From Hydrogenophaga sp. (GTDB lineage Bacteria > Pseudomonadota > Gammaproteobacteria > Burkholderiales > Burkholderiaceae_C): 64,000 nucleotides of DNA. Below, in pieces: positions 1 to 45,410 of this stretch (the first letter of the stretch is position 1; the number at the start of each line of letters is the position of its first letter). The notes under the pieces are model-generated. The model did no database searches. It was not told the origin of the DNA and saw nothing but the letters and a program-made list of their open reading frames with translations. Location: contig NZ_JAUCZG010000012.1 of NCBI RefSeq assembly GCF_030373225.1, positions 1 through 64,000 of the forward strand, in the 5' to 3' direction. The position numbers were made by a program, and so were the translations under genes.

Positions 1-222
1 AGGCCCAGCCCCCTCGGGGGGCAGCGGACCTCGCGCAGCGGGGGAGCGTGGGGGCTTCCGGATCCGGCTCCGGGCCGCCCCAAGCCGGATCAGCCCCCTC
101 GGGGGGCAGCGGACCTCGCGAAGCGGGGGAGCGTGGGGGCACGCAGATCCGGCGCCGGGCCGCCCCAAGCCGGATCAGCCCCCTCGGGGGGCAGCGGACC
201 TCGCGAAGCGGGGCAGCGTGGG
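1..222. repeat. 85-bp tandem GC-rich repeat, about 2.6 copies
   Basis: The segment beginning AGCCCCCTCGGGGGGCAGCG recurs at 7, 92 and 177, giving an exact 85-bp period. Each unit holds the palindromic core CCCCCTCGGGGG and an arm ending GGGGGAGCGTGGGGGC. The third copy differs by one base (GGGGCAGCG). The same unit, inverted and with an 84-bp period, lies inside the acetoacetyl-CoA synthetase gene near 44.7 kb, so it is a dispersed chromosomal element. It sits just downstream of minE. The left end is cut by the window, so total copy number is unknown. Confidence 0.9.
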
Positions 223-226
223 GGCC

Positions 227-23644: not shown

Positions 23645-24481
23645 ATGAAACAACTGCTCGAGAAACATTTCGGCAAGGCCTGGCTGGCACTGGTGTTCGC
23701 CTTCCTGTACCTGCCGCTGCTGTTCATGATCGTGTTTTCGTTCAACAGCACCCGGCAGGACGCTCGCTTCACCGGTTTCTCGTTGCGCTGGTACGAGGCG
23801 CTGATGCGCGACTCCAAGATCGTCGATGCCTTCTGGCTGTCGATCAAGGTCGCGGCGGTCACCGGTGTGCTCTCGGCGGTGCTGGCCACCTTTGCCGCCT
23901 TCGTGCTGGTGCGCTACCGCCGCTTCATCGGTCGCACCGTCTTCAGTGGCATGGTGAACGCGCCGCTGGTGATGCCCGAGGTGATCATCGGCCTGTCGCT
24001 GCTGTTGCTCTTTGTGGGTGCGCAGAACCTGTTCGGCTGGCCGCAGCGCGGCCTGATCACCATCATCGCCGGCCACACGCTGCTGGGCATGGCCTACGGC
24101 ATGGTGGTGATCCAGAGCCGGTTGATGGAGATGGACCGCTCCATTGAAGAGGCGGCCATGGACCTGGGCGCCCGGCCGCACCAGGTGTTCTTCCTGATCA
24201 CGCTGCCCAACATCTTCCAGGCCATCCTGGCGGCCTTCCTGCTTGCGTTCACGCTCTCGTTCGATGACGTGGTGATTGCCGAATTCCTCTCCGGGCCGGG
24301 TGTGAACACCTTGCCGCAGGTGATCTTCGGCTACGCGCGGCGCGGCATCAACCCCACGGTCTATGCCGCGGCCACGCTGCTGATCGTGACGGTGACCATC
24401 GTGATCGTGGGCTATGCGGTGTGGGTGGCGCGCTCGACCAGAAAGCGCGAACGGGAAGTGGCGGCGGCGCTGCGGTCCTGA
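23645..24481 (+). CDS. potI: Polyamine ABC transporter permease
   Basis: The second permease, 278 residues and about six helices, with the coupling segment EEAAMDLGARPHQVFFLITLP. FSFNSTRQDARFTGFSLRWYE after the first helix is typical of PotI/PotC. It completes the F-G-H-I transporter set. A REP element follows its stop. Confidence 0.9.
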   Translation: MKQLLEKHFGKAWLALVFAFLYLPLLFMIVFSFNSTRQDARFTGFSLRWYEALMRDSKIVDAFWLSIKVAAVTGVLSAVLATFAAFVLVRYRRFIGRTVFSGMVNAPLVMPEVIIGLSLLLLFVGAQNLFGWPQRGLITIIAGHTLLGMAYGMVVIQSRLMEMDRSIEEAAMDLGARPHQVFFLITLPNIFQAILAAFLLAFTLSFDDVVIAEFLSGPGVNTLPQVIFGYARRGINPTVYAAATLLIVTVTIVIVGYAVWVARSTRKREREVAAALRS

Positions 24482-24568: not shown

Positions 24569-24639
24569 CCGTTCGGGCTGAGCTTGTCGAAGCCCTCGCC
24601 ATAGCGTTGGTGAGCCTTCGACAAGCTCAGGGCGAACGG
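24569..24639. repeat. REP-like element (CCGTTCGGGCTGAGC type)
   Basis: CCGTTCGGGCTGAGCTTGTC and its inverted partner ending GCTCAGGGCGAACGG flank a short loop, giving a roughly 27-base imperfect stem. The same element lies inside the acetoacetyl-CoA synthetase gene at 44299. Such sequences are abundant in Comamonadaceae and pseudomonads. Mobilisation by a REP-associated transposase is family knowledge; none is in the window. Confidence 0.88.
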
Positions 24640-24656
24640 GATTCACCACCGCCACC

Positions 24657-26147
24657 ATGACCGCCATCTCGCCCCAGGCCTCAGCCCTTTCCTTCGACGG
24701 CCGCGCCTTCATCAACGGCGAGCGCACCGCTGCGCGCGACGGCCAGACCTTTGACTGCATTTCGCCGGTGGACGGTCGCCTGCTCACCGCTGTTGCGCGT
24801 TGTGGCGAGGCCGACATCGATGCGGCGGTGGCTGCCGGCCGTGCCGCCTTTGAAGACCGCCGCTGGAGCGGCATGGCGCCGGCGCAGCGCAAACGCATCA
24901 TGATCAAGTTCGCCGAGCAGGTGAGCGCCCACGCCGACGAACTGGCCCTGATCGAAACGCTGGACATGGGCAAACCGATCAAGTACGCCAAGGGCGTTGA
25001 CGTGAACAGCGCGGCCAACTGCATCCGCTGGTATGGCGAGGCGGTGGACAAGGTGTACGACGAGATCGCGCCCACGGGCCGCCAGGCGCTGGCGCTGATC
25101 ACCCGCGAGCCGGTGGGTGTGGTGGGTGTGATCGTGCCCTGGAACTACCCCATGATCATGGCGGCCTGGAAGATCGCACCCGCGCTGGCCGCGGGCAACT
25201 CGGTGGTCTTGAAGCCCAGCGAGAAGAGCCCGCTGTCTGCCTTGCGCCTGGCCGAGCTGGCGCTGGCCGCCGGCATCCCGCCGGGGGTGTTCAACGTGGT
25301 GCCCGGCTACGGCCCCGAGGCCGGCAGCCCGCTGGCGTTGCACATGGACGTGGACTGCATTGCCTTCACCGGCAGCACGCGGGTGGGCAAGCAGATCCAC
25401 GTGATGGCCGGGCAGAGCAACCTCAAGCGGGCCTGGACCGAACTCGGTGGCAAGTCGCCCAACATCGTGTTCGCCGACTGCCCCGACCTCGACCGCGCGG
25501 TGGAGGCCGCCGTGGGCAGCATCTTCTTCAACCAGGGCGAGAGCTGCAACGCGCCCTCGCGCCTGTTCATCGAGGCCTCGATCAAGGACGCGTTTCTGGA
25601 AAAAGCCCTGAAGCTGGTGCCGCAGTACCAGCCGGGCAACCCGCTGGACAAGGCCACCACCATGGGCGCCATCGTCGACAAGGTGCAGATGGACACGGTG
25701 CTGCGTTACATCGCATCGGGCAAGAGCGAGGGCGCCACATTGCTGGCCGGCGGCGAGGCCTCGATGCCGGTGGCCGGTGGCAACTACGTGCTGCCCACCA
25801 TCTTTGACGGCGTGACGCCGCAGATGACGATCGCGCGCGAGGAAATCTTCGGCCCGGTGCTCTCGGTGCTCAGCTTCATCGACGCGGCCGAGGTGGTGCG
25901 CGAGGCCAACAACAGTGTGTATGGGCTGCAGGCTGCGGTCTGGACGCGCGACATCAACAAGGCGCACGGCGTGGCGCGTGCGCTGCGCGCCGGCACGGTG
26001 CATGTGAACCAGTACGACGAGGACGACATCACCGTGCCGTTTGGCGGCTTCAAGCAGAGCGGTGTGGGGCGGGACAAGTCGCTGCATGCGTTCGACAAGT
26101 ACACCGAGACCAAGACCACCTGGATCCGGATCGACAGCCCGGTTTAA
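24657..26147 (+). CDS. puuC: Gamma-glutamyl-gamma-aminobutyraldehyde dehydrogenase
   Basis: An NAD(P)-dependent aldehyde dehydrogenase of 496 residues, oxidising the aldehyde made by PuuB and likely 4-aminobutanal from the transaminase. The catalytic Cys297 is in NQGESCNAP, the general base lies in TELGGKSP, and the substrate anchor is in GFKQSGVGRDKS. PuuC/KauB-type proteins match in length and N-terminus. It is placed between the transporter and gabT. Confidence 0.88.
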   Translation: MTAISPQASALSFDGRAFINGERTAARDGQTFDCISPVDGRLLTAVARCGEADIDAAVAAGRAAFEDRRWSGMAPAQRKRIMIKFAEQVSAHADELALIETLDMGKPIKYAKGVDVNSAANCIRWYGEAVDKVYDEIAPTGRQALALITREPVGVVGVIVPWNYPMIMAAWKIAPALAAGNSVVLKPSEKSPLSALRLAELALAAGIPPGVFNVVPGYGPEAGSPLALHMDVDCIAFTGSTRVGKQIHVMAGQSNLKRAWTELGGKSPNIVFADCPDLDRAVEAAVGSIFFNQGESCNAPSRLFIEASIKDAFLEKALKLVPQYQPGNPLDKATTMGAIVDKVQMDTVLRYIASGKSEGATLLAGGEASMPVAGGNYVLPTIFDGVTPQMTIAREEIFGPVLSVLSFIDAAEVVREANNSVYGLQAAVWTRDINKAHGVARALRAGTVHVNQYDEDDITVPFGGFKQSGVGRDKSLHAFDKYTETKTTWIRIDSPV

Positions 26148-42986: not shown

Positions 42987-45410
42987 ATGAACGAGACAAG
43001 CACACCTCCCTTCACGCCACAGATCCGTCTGTACCAGCAGTGGCTGGCCGAGCAGCGCGGCCTGAGCTTCGACAGCTACGAGGCGCTCTGGCACTGGTCC
43101 ACGACCGACCTCGACGCCTTCTGGCAGAGCATCTGGGACTATTTCGACATGCGCTCGCCCACCCCGCACACCGCGGTGCTGGAGCGCAACGTGATGCCCG
43201 GCGCCAGGTGGTTCCCGGGCGCCCAGGTCAACTACGCCCAGCAGGTGTTTCGCCACGTGCAGCCCGCGCACGAGGCCGGTTTCATGGCGATCGTGAGCCG
43301 CAATGAAAAGGGCCGGCATGTGGAGCTGAGCTGGCCCGAGTTGCGCCGCCAGGCGGCCTCGCTGGCCTTGCACCTGCAGGACCAGGGCGTCAAGCCCGGC
43401 GACCGCGTGGCCGCCTACCTGCCCAACATCCCCGAAGCGATGGTGGCGTTTCTGGCCACGGTGAGCATCGGTGGCGTCTGGAGCATCTGTGCGCCCGACA
43501 TGGGCACCAACGCCGTGCTCGACCGCTTCCGCCAGATCGAGCCGGTGGTGCTGATCGCCTGCGACGGCGTGACCTATGGCGGGCGCGACTTCGACCGCCT
43601 GGCCGTGGTGGCCGAACTGCGCGCGGCCCTGCCCACGGTGCGGCATGTGGTGCTGCACACCAACCTGGCGGCCGACGCCGAGGATGTGGCCGAGGCCACC
43701 GACCGGGCCTTGCAGGCTGCCGCACCCTGCACCAGCTTCGCCGAGGCGCTGTCGCGCATGGACACGGCGGTGGCGCAGTTCCAGCCACTCTGGCTGCCCT
43801 TCGACCACCCGCTGTGGATCGTCTACTCCAGCGGCACCACCGGCCTGCCCAAGCCCATCGTGCACGGCCACGGCGGCACCACCATCGTGGCACTGGCACT
43901 GAAGATCCTGCACAACGACATCGGCTGCAGCTACGAGCCCAACAGCTGGGGCGAGCGCTACCACTGGTACAGCTCCACCGGCTGGGTGATGTGGAACGCC
44001 CAGGCCGGCGGGCTGCTGGGCGGCACCACCTGCGTGATCTTCGACGGCAACCCCGGCGGCTCCCGAGACAAGCCCGACTGGACCACGCTGTGGCGCTTCG
44101 CCGCCGAGCAGCGCGTGACTTTCTTCGGCGCAGGTGCGGCGTTCTTCGCCAACTGCCTCAAGGCCGGCGTGGACCTGTCGACCTGCGGTGATCTGTCGTC
44201 GGTGCGCGCGCTCGGAAGCACCGGCTCGCCGCTGTCGGAAGACGCGCAGAACTGGGGGACGCAGCAGTTCCGCAGGGTGCGCAAGCGCCAAGCCCTGTCC
44301 GTTCGCCCTGAGCCTGTCGAAGGGCTCCCTCATGCGGGGCTTCGACAGGCTCAGCCCGAACGGGGCGTGGCTCCGCTGGAGCAAGGGATGGCTCAGCCGG
44401 AGCAGGATCAGGACATCTGGTGGTGCAACATCTCGGGCGGCACCGACTTCGCCGGCGCCTTCATCGGCGGCAACCGCGATCTTCCCCAGACTGCCGGGCG
44501 CATGCAGTGCCGCCTGATGGGTTGCGCGGTGGAGGCCTGGAACGAGCAGGGCGAGCCGGTGGTCGACGAGGTGGGTGAGCTGGTGTGCACGCAACCCATT
44601 CCCTCGATGCCGCTGTACTTCGTGGGCGATGTCGGCAACCAGCGCCTGCTGGGCAGCTACTTCGACATGTATCCGCCCGGTCATGGGCGCAAGCCTGGAG
44701 GGGCTCTCCCTGTCTTGGGGCGGCCCGGCGACAGCATGGCTGAGCCCCCACGCTCCCCCGCTGCGCGAGGTCCGCTGCCCCCCGAGGGGGCTGATTCACC
44801 TTGGGGCGGCCCGGCGGTGAATCCTTCGCCCCAACACTCCCCCGCTGCGCGAGGTCCGCTGCCCCCCGAGGGGGCTCTCCCTGTCTTGGGGCGGCCCGGC
44901 GACAGGGATCTGGGCCCGGAGGCCGGTGCCGTCTGGCGCCACGGCGACTGGCTGCGCATCCACCCGGACGGCTCCTGCGTGATCTATGGCCGCTCGGACG
45001 CCACCATCAACCGCCACGGCCTGCGCATGGGCACCAGCGAGCTCTACAGCGCGGTCGAAGCCTTGCCCGAGGTGATGGACTCCATGGTGGTGGATCTCGA
45101 GTACCTCGGTCGCGAGAGCTACATGCCCTTGTTCGTGGTGCTGCGCGATGGCCTGGTGCTCGACGACGGGACACGTCAGCGCATCCACGACCGCATCAAG
45201 ACCGCACTGTCGCCGCGCTTCGTGCCCAACGAGATCCTGCAGGTGGCCGAGATCCCGCGCACGCTCTCGGGCAAGAAGCAGGAGCTCCCGATCAAGAAAC
45301 TGTTGCTCGGCCAGCCGCTGGAGAAGGTGATCAACAAGGAGGCCATGGCCAACCCGGGATGTCTGGCGTGGTACGAGGCGTTTGCGCAGCGCCATCTCGC
45401 GGGCGACTGA
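42987..45410 (+). CDS. Acetoacetyl-CoA synthetase with two in-frame repeat insertions
   Basis: Activates acetoacetate to acetoacetyl-CoA. The protein is 807 residues, against about 650-670 in the family. The ANL core is recognisable: N-terminal PQIRLYQQWLAEQ, the P-loop YSSGTTGLPKPIVHG, NISGGTDFAGAF, VWRHGDWLRI and the C-terminal LSGKKQELPIKK with the acetylation lysine. The extra length is two chromosomal repeat elements, REP-type at 44299-44363 and a tandem element at 44698-44905, both in frame and stop-free. The flanking conserved segments are intact. ATG 42987 follows AAAGGA by 8 bases. It may be active if the loops are tolerated, or a gene in decay. Confidence 0.9.
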   Translation: MNETSTPPFTPQIRLYQQWLAEQRGLSFDSYEALWHWSTTDLDAFWQSIWDYFDMRSPTPHTAVLERNVMPGARWFPGAQVNYAQQVFRHVQPAHEAGFMAIVSRNEKGRHVELSWPELRRQAASLALHLQDQGVKPGDRVAAYLPNIPEAMVAFLATVSIGGVWSICAPDMGTNAVLDRFRQIEPVVLIACDGVTYGGRDFDRLAVVAELRAALPTVRHVVLHTNLAADAEDVAEATDRALQAAAPCTSFAEALSRMDTAVAQFQPLWLPFDHPLWIVYSSGTTGLPKPIVHGHGGTTIVALALKILHNDIGCSYEPNSWGERYHWYSSTGWVMWNAQAGGLLGGTTCVIFDGNPGGSRDKPDWTTLWRFAAEQRVTFFGAGAAFFANCLKAGVDLSTCGDLSSVRALGSTGSPLSEDAQNWGTQQFRRVRKRQALSVRPEPVEGLPHAGLRQAQPERGVAPLEQGMAQPEQDQDIWWCNISGGTDFAGAFIGGNRDLPQTAGRMQCRLMGCAVEAWNEQGEPVVDEVGELVCTQPIPSMPLYFVGDVGNQRLLGSYFDMYPPGHGRKPGGALPVLGRPGDSMAEPPRSPAARGPLPPEGADSPWGGPAVNPSPQHSPAARGPLPPEGALPVLGRPGDRDLGPEAGAVWRHGDWLRIHPDGSCVIYGRSDATINRHGLRMGTSELYSAVEALPEVMDSMVVDLEYLGRESYMPLFVVLRDGLVLDDGTRQRIHDRIKTALSPRFVPNEILQVAEIPRTLSGKKQELPIKKLLLGQPLEKVINKEAMANPGCLAWYEAFAQRHLAGD
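44299..44363. repeat. REP-like element inside acetoacetyl-CoA synthetase
   Basis: CCGTTCGCCCTGAGCCTGTC and its inverted partner GGCTCAGCCCGAACGG match the intergenic element at 24569. It is translated as S-V-R-P-E-P-V-E-G, then L-R-Q-A-Q-P-E-R-G, typical REP-encoded peptides. It lies between the GSTGSPLSEDAQNWG and NISGGTDF segments. Confidence 0.92.
44698..44905. repeat. Tandem 84-bp repeat inside acetoacetyl-CoA synthetase
   Basis: CTCCCCCGCTGCGCGAGGTC blocks start at 44753 and 44837, 84 bases apart. The block GGGGCTCTCCCTGTCTTGGG occurs at 44700 and 44871. It is the inverted form of the 85-bp unit at 1-222. The peptide SPAARGPLPPEGA is produced twice. The 84-base period keeps frame. It separates SYFDMYPPGHG from GAVWRHGDW. 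Confidence 0.92.

Follow-up and report, generated by a model that had tools for sequence, protein, structure and literature searches.

How does a conserved metabolic enzyme come to contain two kinds of repetitive DNA in its reading frame? We addressed this for the acetoacetate--CoA ligase (acetoacetyl-CoA synthetase, AACS) gene of Hydrogenophaga sp. (assembly GCF_030373225.1, contig NZ_JAUCZG010000012.1). The window analysed is a stretch of 64,000 nucleotides, positions 1 to 64,000 of this contig. The gene carries a palindrome resembling repetitive extragenic palindromic (REP) elements and, further downstream, an array of a GC-rich hairpin element (GC element). We consider it highly probable that two types of dispersed palindromic repeats keep entering coding genes in these bacteria, that the in-frame ones at turns are retained, and that the enzyme stays functional. 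Under this explanation, two short repeats scattered in the genomes would repeatedly insert into protein-coding genes, and the insertions kept would be those lying in frame and at turns between conserved motifs. AACS would offer three accepting turns, here with REP in turn 1 and the GC array in turn 2. Translation of the inserts would give disordered loops rich in proline and glycine, on an enzyme that remains functional.

Two filled loops in an intact ligase gene

The open reading frame (ORF) starts with ATG at 42987, ends with a stop codon at 45410, and has 807 codons and no internal stop. The whole protein scored above the cut-offs of two curated families, with 928.7 bits for NF002937 (cut-off 639) and 622.4 bits for TIGR01217 (cut-off 520.9). 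No second close ligase copy was found in the genome, where the other AMP-ligase matches, repeat matches aside, were at most 33% identical. The features of the gene are given below; L, G and C numbers denote loci, genomes and contigs, and orthologues without a repeat insert are called empty.

42987..45410, + strand: acetoacetate--CoA ligase gene, 807 amino acids (aa), frame intact, from the ORF reading and curated family scores
44271..44411, + strand: loop 1 (residues 429-475), 47 aa long, compared with 10 aa where it is empty, as in L020 and L022
44299..44363, + strand: REP-like palindrome within loop 1; 24-nt arms 44299-44322 and 44340-44363, 92% complementary
44619..44654, + strand: third permissive turn, residues 545-556, empty here; GC element present in L073, L100, L104 and L117
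44676..44930, + strand: loop 2 (residues 564-648), 85 aa long, compared with 18 aa where it is empty, as in L020 and L022
44700..44905, - strand (element orientation): GC-rich hairpin array within loop 2, unit spacing 84 bp
44707..44734, - strand: hairpin 1 of the array; read on the plus strand, arm TCCCTGTC, constant 15-nt loop, shortened arm GACAG
44793..44823, - strand: hairpin 2; read on the plus strand, arms GATTCACC and GGTGAATC with the constant 15-nt loop between them
44878..44908, - strand: hairpin 3; read on the plus strand, arms TCCCTGTC and GACAGGGA with the constant 15-nt loop between them

The array consists of two 49-nt copies, 84 bp apart and 96% identical, and includes an exact 35-nt repeat (44700-44734 and 44871-44905). 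The first-pass annotation had described the protein as about 140 residues longer than its family. This holds against the distant family only (TIGR01217 model length 657). Four empty orthologues of the same group (L020, L022, L026, L103) have 692-702 aa, an excess here of 105-115 aa, and some other empty rows with uncertain starts are slightly longer than 702 aa. From the loop lengths (47 against 10 aa, 85 against 18 aa), 104 aa of the excess are located in the two loops. When the gene was aligned to the synthetases of relatives, as that annotation had proposed, both loops proved shorter in the empty sister genes. Its observation of two different repeats absorbed in frame, the REP at 44299-44363 and the GC array reaching 44905, is thereby confirmed: the uninterrupted 807-aa frame stands against sister genes without inserts. 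The Streptomyces lividans AACS structure 4wd1 has no comparable extra residues either. Its chain runs from 408 to 413 where the alignment gap spans 428 to 475 here (loop 1), and from 501 to 503 where it spans 563 to 649 (loop 2).

AlphaFold2 (67 sequences) gave a mean predicted local distance difference test (pLDDT) score of 80.7 and a predicted template modelling score of 0.85, and the best solved-structure match of the model was 4wd1, itself an acetoacetyl-CoA synthetase. Because pLDDT fell below 50 in both inserts (residues 447-474 and 573-639) while the rest folds as 4wd1, the inserts are predicted to be disordered loops on a normal ligase fold, probably at its surface.

Selection on the ligase gene

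Compared with four relatives, the window gene had ratios of nonsynonymous to synonymous substitution rates (dN/dS) of 0.080, 0.117, 0.119 and 0.132; by segment they ranged from 0.04 to 0.20. Six pairs among the relatives, filled and empty, gave 0.080-0.111, with 0.111 for the sole pair having both loops empty. In columns where six other sequences agree, the window gene had 22.5 synonymous and 8.5 nonsynonymous private changes (ratio 0.38). Judged from these substitutions, constraint on the ligase appears strong, perhaps slightly relaxed, and not decay-like. The first-pass annotation had offered two readings, an early stage of decay or an enzyme tolerating long disordered loops. The first is not borne out, as the values of 0.08-0.13 are close to those of the relatives' pairs and no clear sign of decay was seen. 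The second agrees with the empty sister genes, the low pLDDT of the inserts and the purifying selection, which together suggest that the loops are tolerated and enzyme activity is probably retained.

The same turns in orthologues

Orthologues were collected from 108 loci with a hit, taking the best ORF of each. Left out were L030-L035 (distant, <900 bits), the near-copies L039, L041 and L046, and L028, leaving 98 rows, 97 of them different (L029 equals L111). L028, from genome G002, was the only one of the 108 loci split into two ORFs; its frame is not judgeable because its long loop-1 element array holds a run of N.

By author-defined peptide patterns, loop 1 was filled in 26 rows and empty in 72, and loop 2 was filled in 6 and empty in 92. 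The loop-1 fillings were the GC element (20), REP (4), both (1) and a PLPQGEG peptide (1); L021, labelled REP, additionally has a piece of the GC element. With strict DNA anchors, 22/98 rows were filled in loop 1 and 5/98 in loop 2. The third turn, between the loops, held the GC element in 4/98 (L073, L100, L104, L117) by the same anchors. The GC element occurs in a single orientation in loop 1, with two different starting frames among species, and mostly in the opposite orientation in loop 2. In Hydrogenophaga sp. A37 (L043), the peptide PLPQGEGRGEG, which we take to be a third repeat type, fills the loop-1 turn. When L013 is compared with the related L022, GAC stands on both sides of the loop-1 insert, the pattern that duplication of a 3-nt target would leave.

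No anchors were found in 119,931 nt 5' of loop 1 (from motif IRLYQQW) or in 44,808 nt 3' of loop 2. Of the 65 anchors, 59 lie in the two loops, which account for 5.7% of the nucleotides; this concentration is descriptive only, given the relatedness of the rows and the greater length of filled loops.

For turnover, a tree of 41 rows was computed with the loops excluded, and label changes were compared with 500 shuffles. The GC label (14/41 rows) required 13 changes, at least nine of them forced by well-supported branches, and a single clade of the 14 rows was rejected (approximately unbiased test, p 2.4e-8). As few changes were reached in 447/500 shuffles, and the label is therefore not clustered; the REP rows were closer to clustered (48/500 as low). 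Between filled and empty, 13 changes were needed for loop 1 and 3 for loop 2.

The repeats in the genome and across genomes

The whole genome had 59 matches to the GC element and 71 to REP, both being dispersed palindromes. Copies of both lie outside genes in the window as well, as had been annotated:

7..225, - strand: GC-rich element copies at the contig start, period 85, placed outside genes from the ORF list only
24569..24639, no strand assigned: REP-like element copy between ORFs 23645-24481 and 24657-26147

The GC element was present in 24/24 genomes of the group and in 0/16 from other families of the order. For REP, the numbers below are those among the matches listed. It was found in 19/24 group genomes and in 2/16 of the others. 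The four genomes with REP in loop 1 had 29-51 REP matches each. The other 18 gene-bearing genomes, including G002 with its unjudged loop, had 0-35, two of them at least 30 (exact p 0.0005 for the association of REP in loop 1 with genomic REP number).

The GC element has a constant 15-nt loop between 8-nt arms, then a second GC hairpin, then a conserved tail. Among 53 copies with distinct arms, standard pairs occupied 87.7% of the pair cells against 64.6% in shuffles, and 108 cells were changed on both arms against 30.4. None of 500 shuffles was as high in either measure, and sliding the partner abolished the signal. The number of pairs with a double change was not raised in these copies (7 against 6.3 shuffled). 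Selection may maintain the arm pairing, or copying of one arm from the other may renew it; paired arms were seen in several coding copies and in copies outside genes.

The last unit of 69 arrays measured 78 nt (29 arrays), 80 (21), 81 (9), 79 (6) or 77 (2), with two outliers, and tandem periods outside AACS loci were 84 in 10/33 and otherwise 75-89. The 84-bp spacing in the gene and the 85 at 7-225 agree with the periods given in the first-pass annotation, in which the tandem block keeps the frame by its 84-base period. Because unit lengths and periods vary, we do not claim a unit built for that. A composite of the element is stop-free in 5/6 frames.

At least nine contigs begin or end inside a GC array (C12, with window positions 6-225, and C3, C4, C5, C8, C13, C28, C33 and C45). 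The arrays thus break the assembly, and their copy numbers are uncertain. Rfam gave no match at gathering score in the window, and four sub-threshold hits at REP (microRNA/mraW) were taken as chance. The phage collection gave no match to the element. Three plasmid records had partial GC-element matches. In one of these, a Rhodoferax antarcticus plasmid (NZ_CP019241.1), the match at 24220-24290 is covered by a gene annotated as Fic family and may be a further coding insertion. Y1_Tnp matches numbered exactly one in 18/24 group genomes, two in 2 and none in 4.

Other conserved genes with in-frame elements

In the own genome, 30 GC loci and 30 REP loci, the best of each, were examined. A locus was called coding when one ORF spanned the element and the sequence on either side showed coding base composition in that frame. 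This was so for 5/30 GC and 4/30 REP loci, all nine with family matches on both sides in the same ORF. They fall into seven genes: the ligase (both loops), MetX, an MsbA-like ABC protein, a PRK08255 hydroxylase/oxidoreductase, a formate-dehydrogenase-like alpha subunit, RecJ, and dihydrolipoyl dehydrogenase, in which the insert sits in a linker. The PRK08255-like gene with an in-frame GC element is present twice (L140 and L141 on contigs C14 and C51 of this genome, G000; 99.2% identical over 1975 bp). Long element-spanning ORFs with no family hits (e.g., L119, L132, L139) were not counted as genes.

Among MetX orthologues, 22/24 rows were empty and L229 had the GC element in the other orientation, judged from the peptide. 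The MsbA-like gene was filled in this genome alone (1/21 rows). RecJ (23 genomes, 25 rows) has REP here; in G003 and G008 that turn holds the GC element, and the remaining 20 genomes were empty. In the single-contig relative G005, 103 matches gave 40 sites, of which 4 were called coding on the same criterion, namely those in the ligase, UvrA, Mfd and kynureninase, the latter three (L326, L340, L344) with the GC element in frame. The first-pass annotation had viewed the inserts as an oddity of one gene; they recur in relatives and in other conserved genes.

A rougher frame test covered 96 of the 100 sites of both genomes, four own-genome sites at contig starts being left out. It agreed for 5/5 own GC, 3/4 own REP and 2/4 G005 coding sites, and gave four extra in-frame calls without such a spanning ORF (L150, L169, L320, L353).

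Alternative explanations

If the repeats had piled up in a gene no longer needed, the window protein might well be, as it is, the longest among 95 orthologue rows with an assigned start; in 3/4 comparisons its dN/dS is higher than that of any other pair, and its private ratio is the second-highest of six genes tested (others 0.04-0.60). Such early decay is nevertheless very unlikely given the intact frame, the low dN/dS overall and in every segment, and the same inserts in uninterrupted orthologues of many species as well as in RecJ, UvrA and Mfd. The broken arrays at contig ends, the window's own included, and their uncertain copy number could suggest repeats wrongly joined into the gene by the assembler. 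An artefact of this kind is hardly credible, as the flanks of each insert belong to the same gene in one frame and the phenomenon recurs in two single-contig genomes (G005 and G023, loci L018 and L010) and in the H. palleronii NBRC 102513 record (L046), which has the same loop as L013. The inserted peptides or RNA hairpins might instead be selected for a function, e.g., regulating the enzyme or its mRNA; the repeated filling of the same turns and the paired arms kept in several coding copies would fit. We regard this as improbable, since most orthologues are empty in each loop, the types, frames and lengths differ, and arm pairing is also seen outside genes.

A further possibility, unlikely but deserving more weight, is that most fillings are old or were exchanged: a few insertions would have spread by homologous recombination or been lost many times, and the repeats would not be entering genes at present. 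L012 and L014 have a near-identical filled loop 1 yet are non-sisters on the tree, which suggests exchange by recombination. The loop-2 inserts of L023, L040 and L070 share CCCGGTC arms, and loop 2 needs few changes on the tree. Given these likenesses, inheritance or exchange may account for some filled loops, and the scattered fillings may reflect both repeated insertion and recombinational exchange, which the data do not separate. Against a mainly old origin, one and the same site holds different kinds of element in different frames (REP, GC, both, PLPQGEG), REP filling tracks genomic REP number, and the MsbA-like insert was seen in this genome alone among the 21 rows searched. The preferred explanation, continuing entry of both repeats, itself has to face several observations besides the elevated substitution ratios and the shared loops. 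The REP-rich genomes G001 (35) and G008 (30, both among the matches listed) carry the gene with no REP in loop 1. The fully empty label was clustered on the 98-row tree (8/500 shuffles as low), which would be expected if filling is rare in large outer clades, Limnohabitans for example. Target-site duplication was weak, with 8/47 arrays outside AACS loci against 2.7 by shuffling (8/2000 reach this) and 7/22 at AACS loci against 4.8 (195/2000); we do not claim it as a general feature. The rougher frame test partly disagreed, and ten sites had flanks that code on the same strand but in different frames and may mark gene borders or broken genes. The sole Y1_Tnp gene of this genome (C1:107274) had no REP in the 3.4 kb around it, nor were any of the matches listed on C1, and no insertion event or active transposase was observed. 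Mobility of the copies is put forward here as probable.

Tentatively, one may go further and suppose that the hairpin element and REP form a lineage-wide, fast-turnover maker of disordered loops, in DNA-repair enzymes too, whose movement rewrites both arms together. We would sooner doubt than assert this; if true, turnover would be so fast that sister species differ.

Comparison with known repeat systems

The element at 44299-44363 resembles REP elements in being a short, abundant palindrome (24-nt arms, 71 matches) lying mostly outside recognised genes. REP elements are linked to a RAYT gene. Here, 4/30 REP loci examined are inside genes, and no REP was seen in the 3.4 kb around the single Y1_Tnp gene of the genome. 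In the literature on palindromic repeats in reading frames of Hydrogenophaga, Comamonadaceae or betaproteobacteria, judged without full texts, we recognised no description of such insertions.

In-frame fusion with a host ORF is shared with intragenic miniature inverted-repeat transposable elements (MITEs) such as ERIC, and passages of a review call such fusions "not unusual" (PMC10969869). Unlike in MITEs, terminal inverted repeats and target duplications are not established for the elements described here.

The closest likeness by description is to the palindromic elements of Rickettsia and Wolbachia, which are short and occur both in intergenic DNA and, in frame, within conserved genes. Excerpts of two papers report that Rickettsia palindromic elements (RPE) enter genes in frame and that some orthologous sites hold different RPE groups (PMC10969869, PMC3767692), much as some sites here hold different repeats in related species. 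Our repeats are likewise palindromic and dispersed (59 GC and 71 REP matches, with hairpin arms) and lie in frame in unrelated conserved genes (seven here, four in G005). They differ in belonging to another bacterial class, the named close relatives being Hydrogenophaga and other Comamonadaceae and not Rickettsia or Wolbachia, in a unit of mostly 77-81 nt compared with ~100-150 for RPE, and in that two different element types share sites. By analogy, the elements would work like RPE; membership is not claimed. According to the same review, palindromes occur unusually often within Rickettsia genes, and it is conceivable that proteins evolve by a similar route in other organisms (PMC10969869). 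Here, two element types appear to follow such a route at the same turns in a betaproteobacterial group of which many species have been sequenced, and with closely related empty controls, so that tolerance, cost and turnover of repeat-born loops become measurable. Short repetitive DNA thus seems to be repeatedly built into conserved proteins without evident harm.
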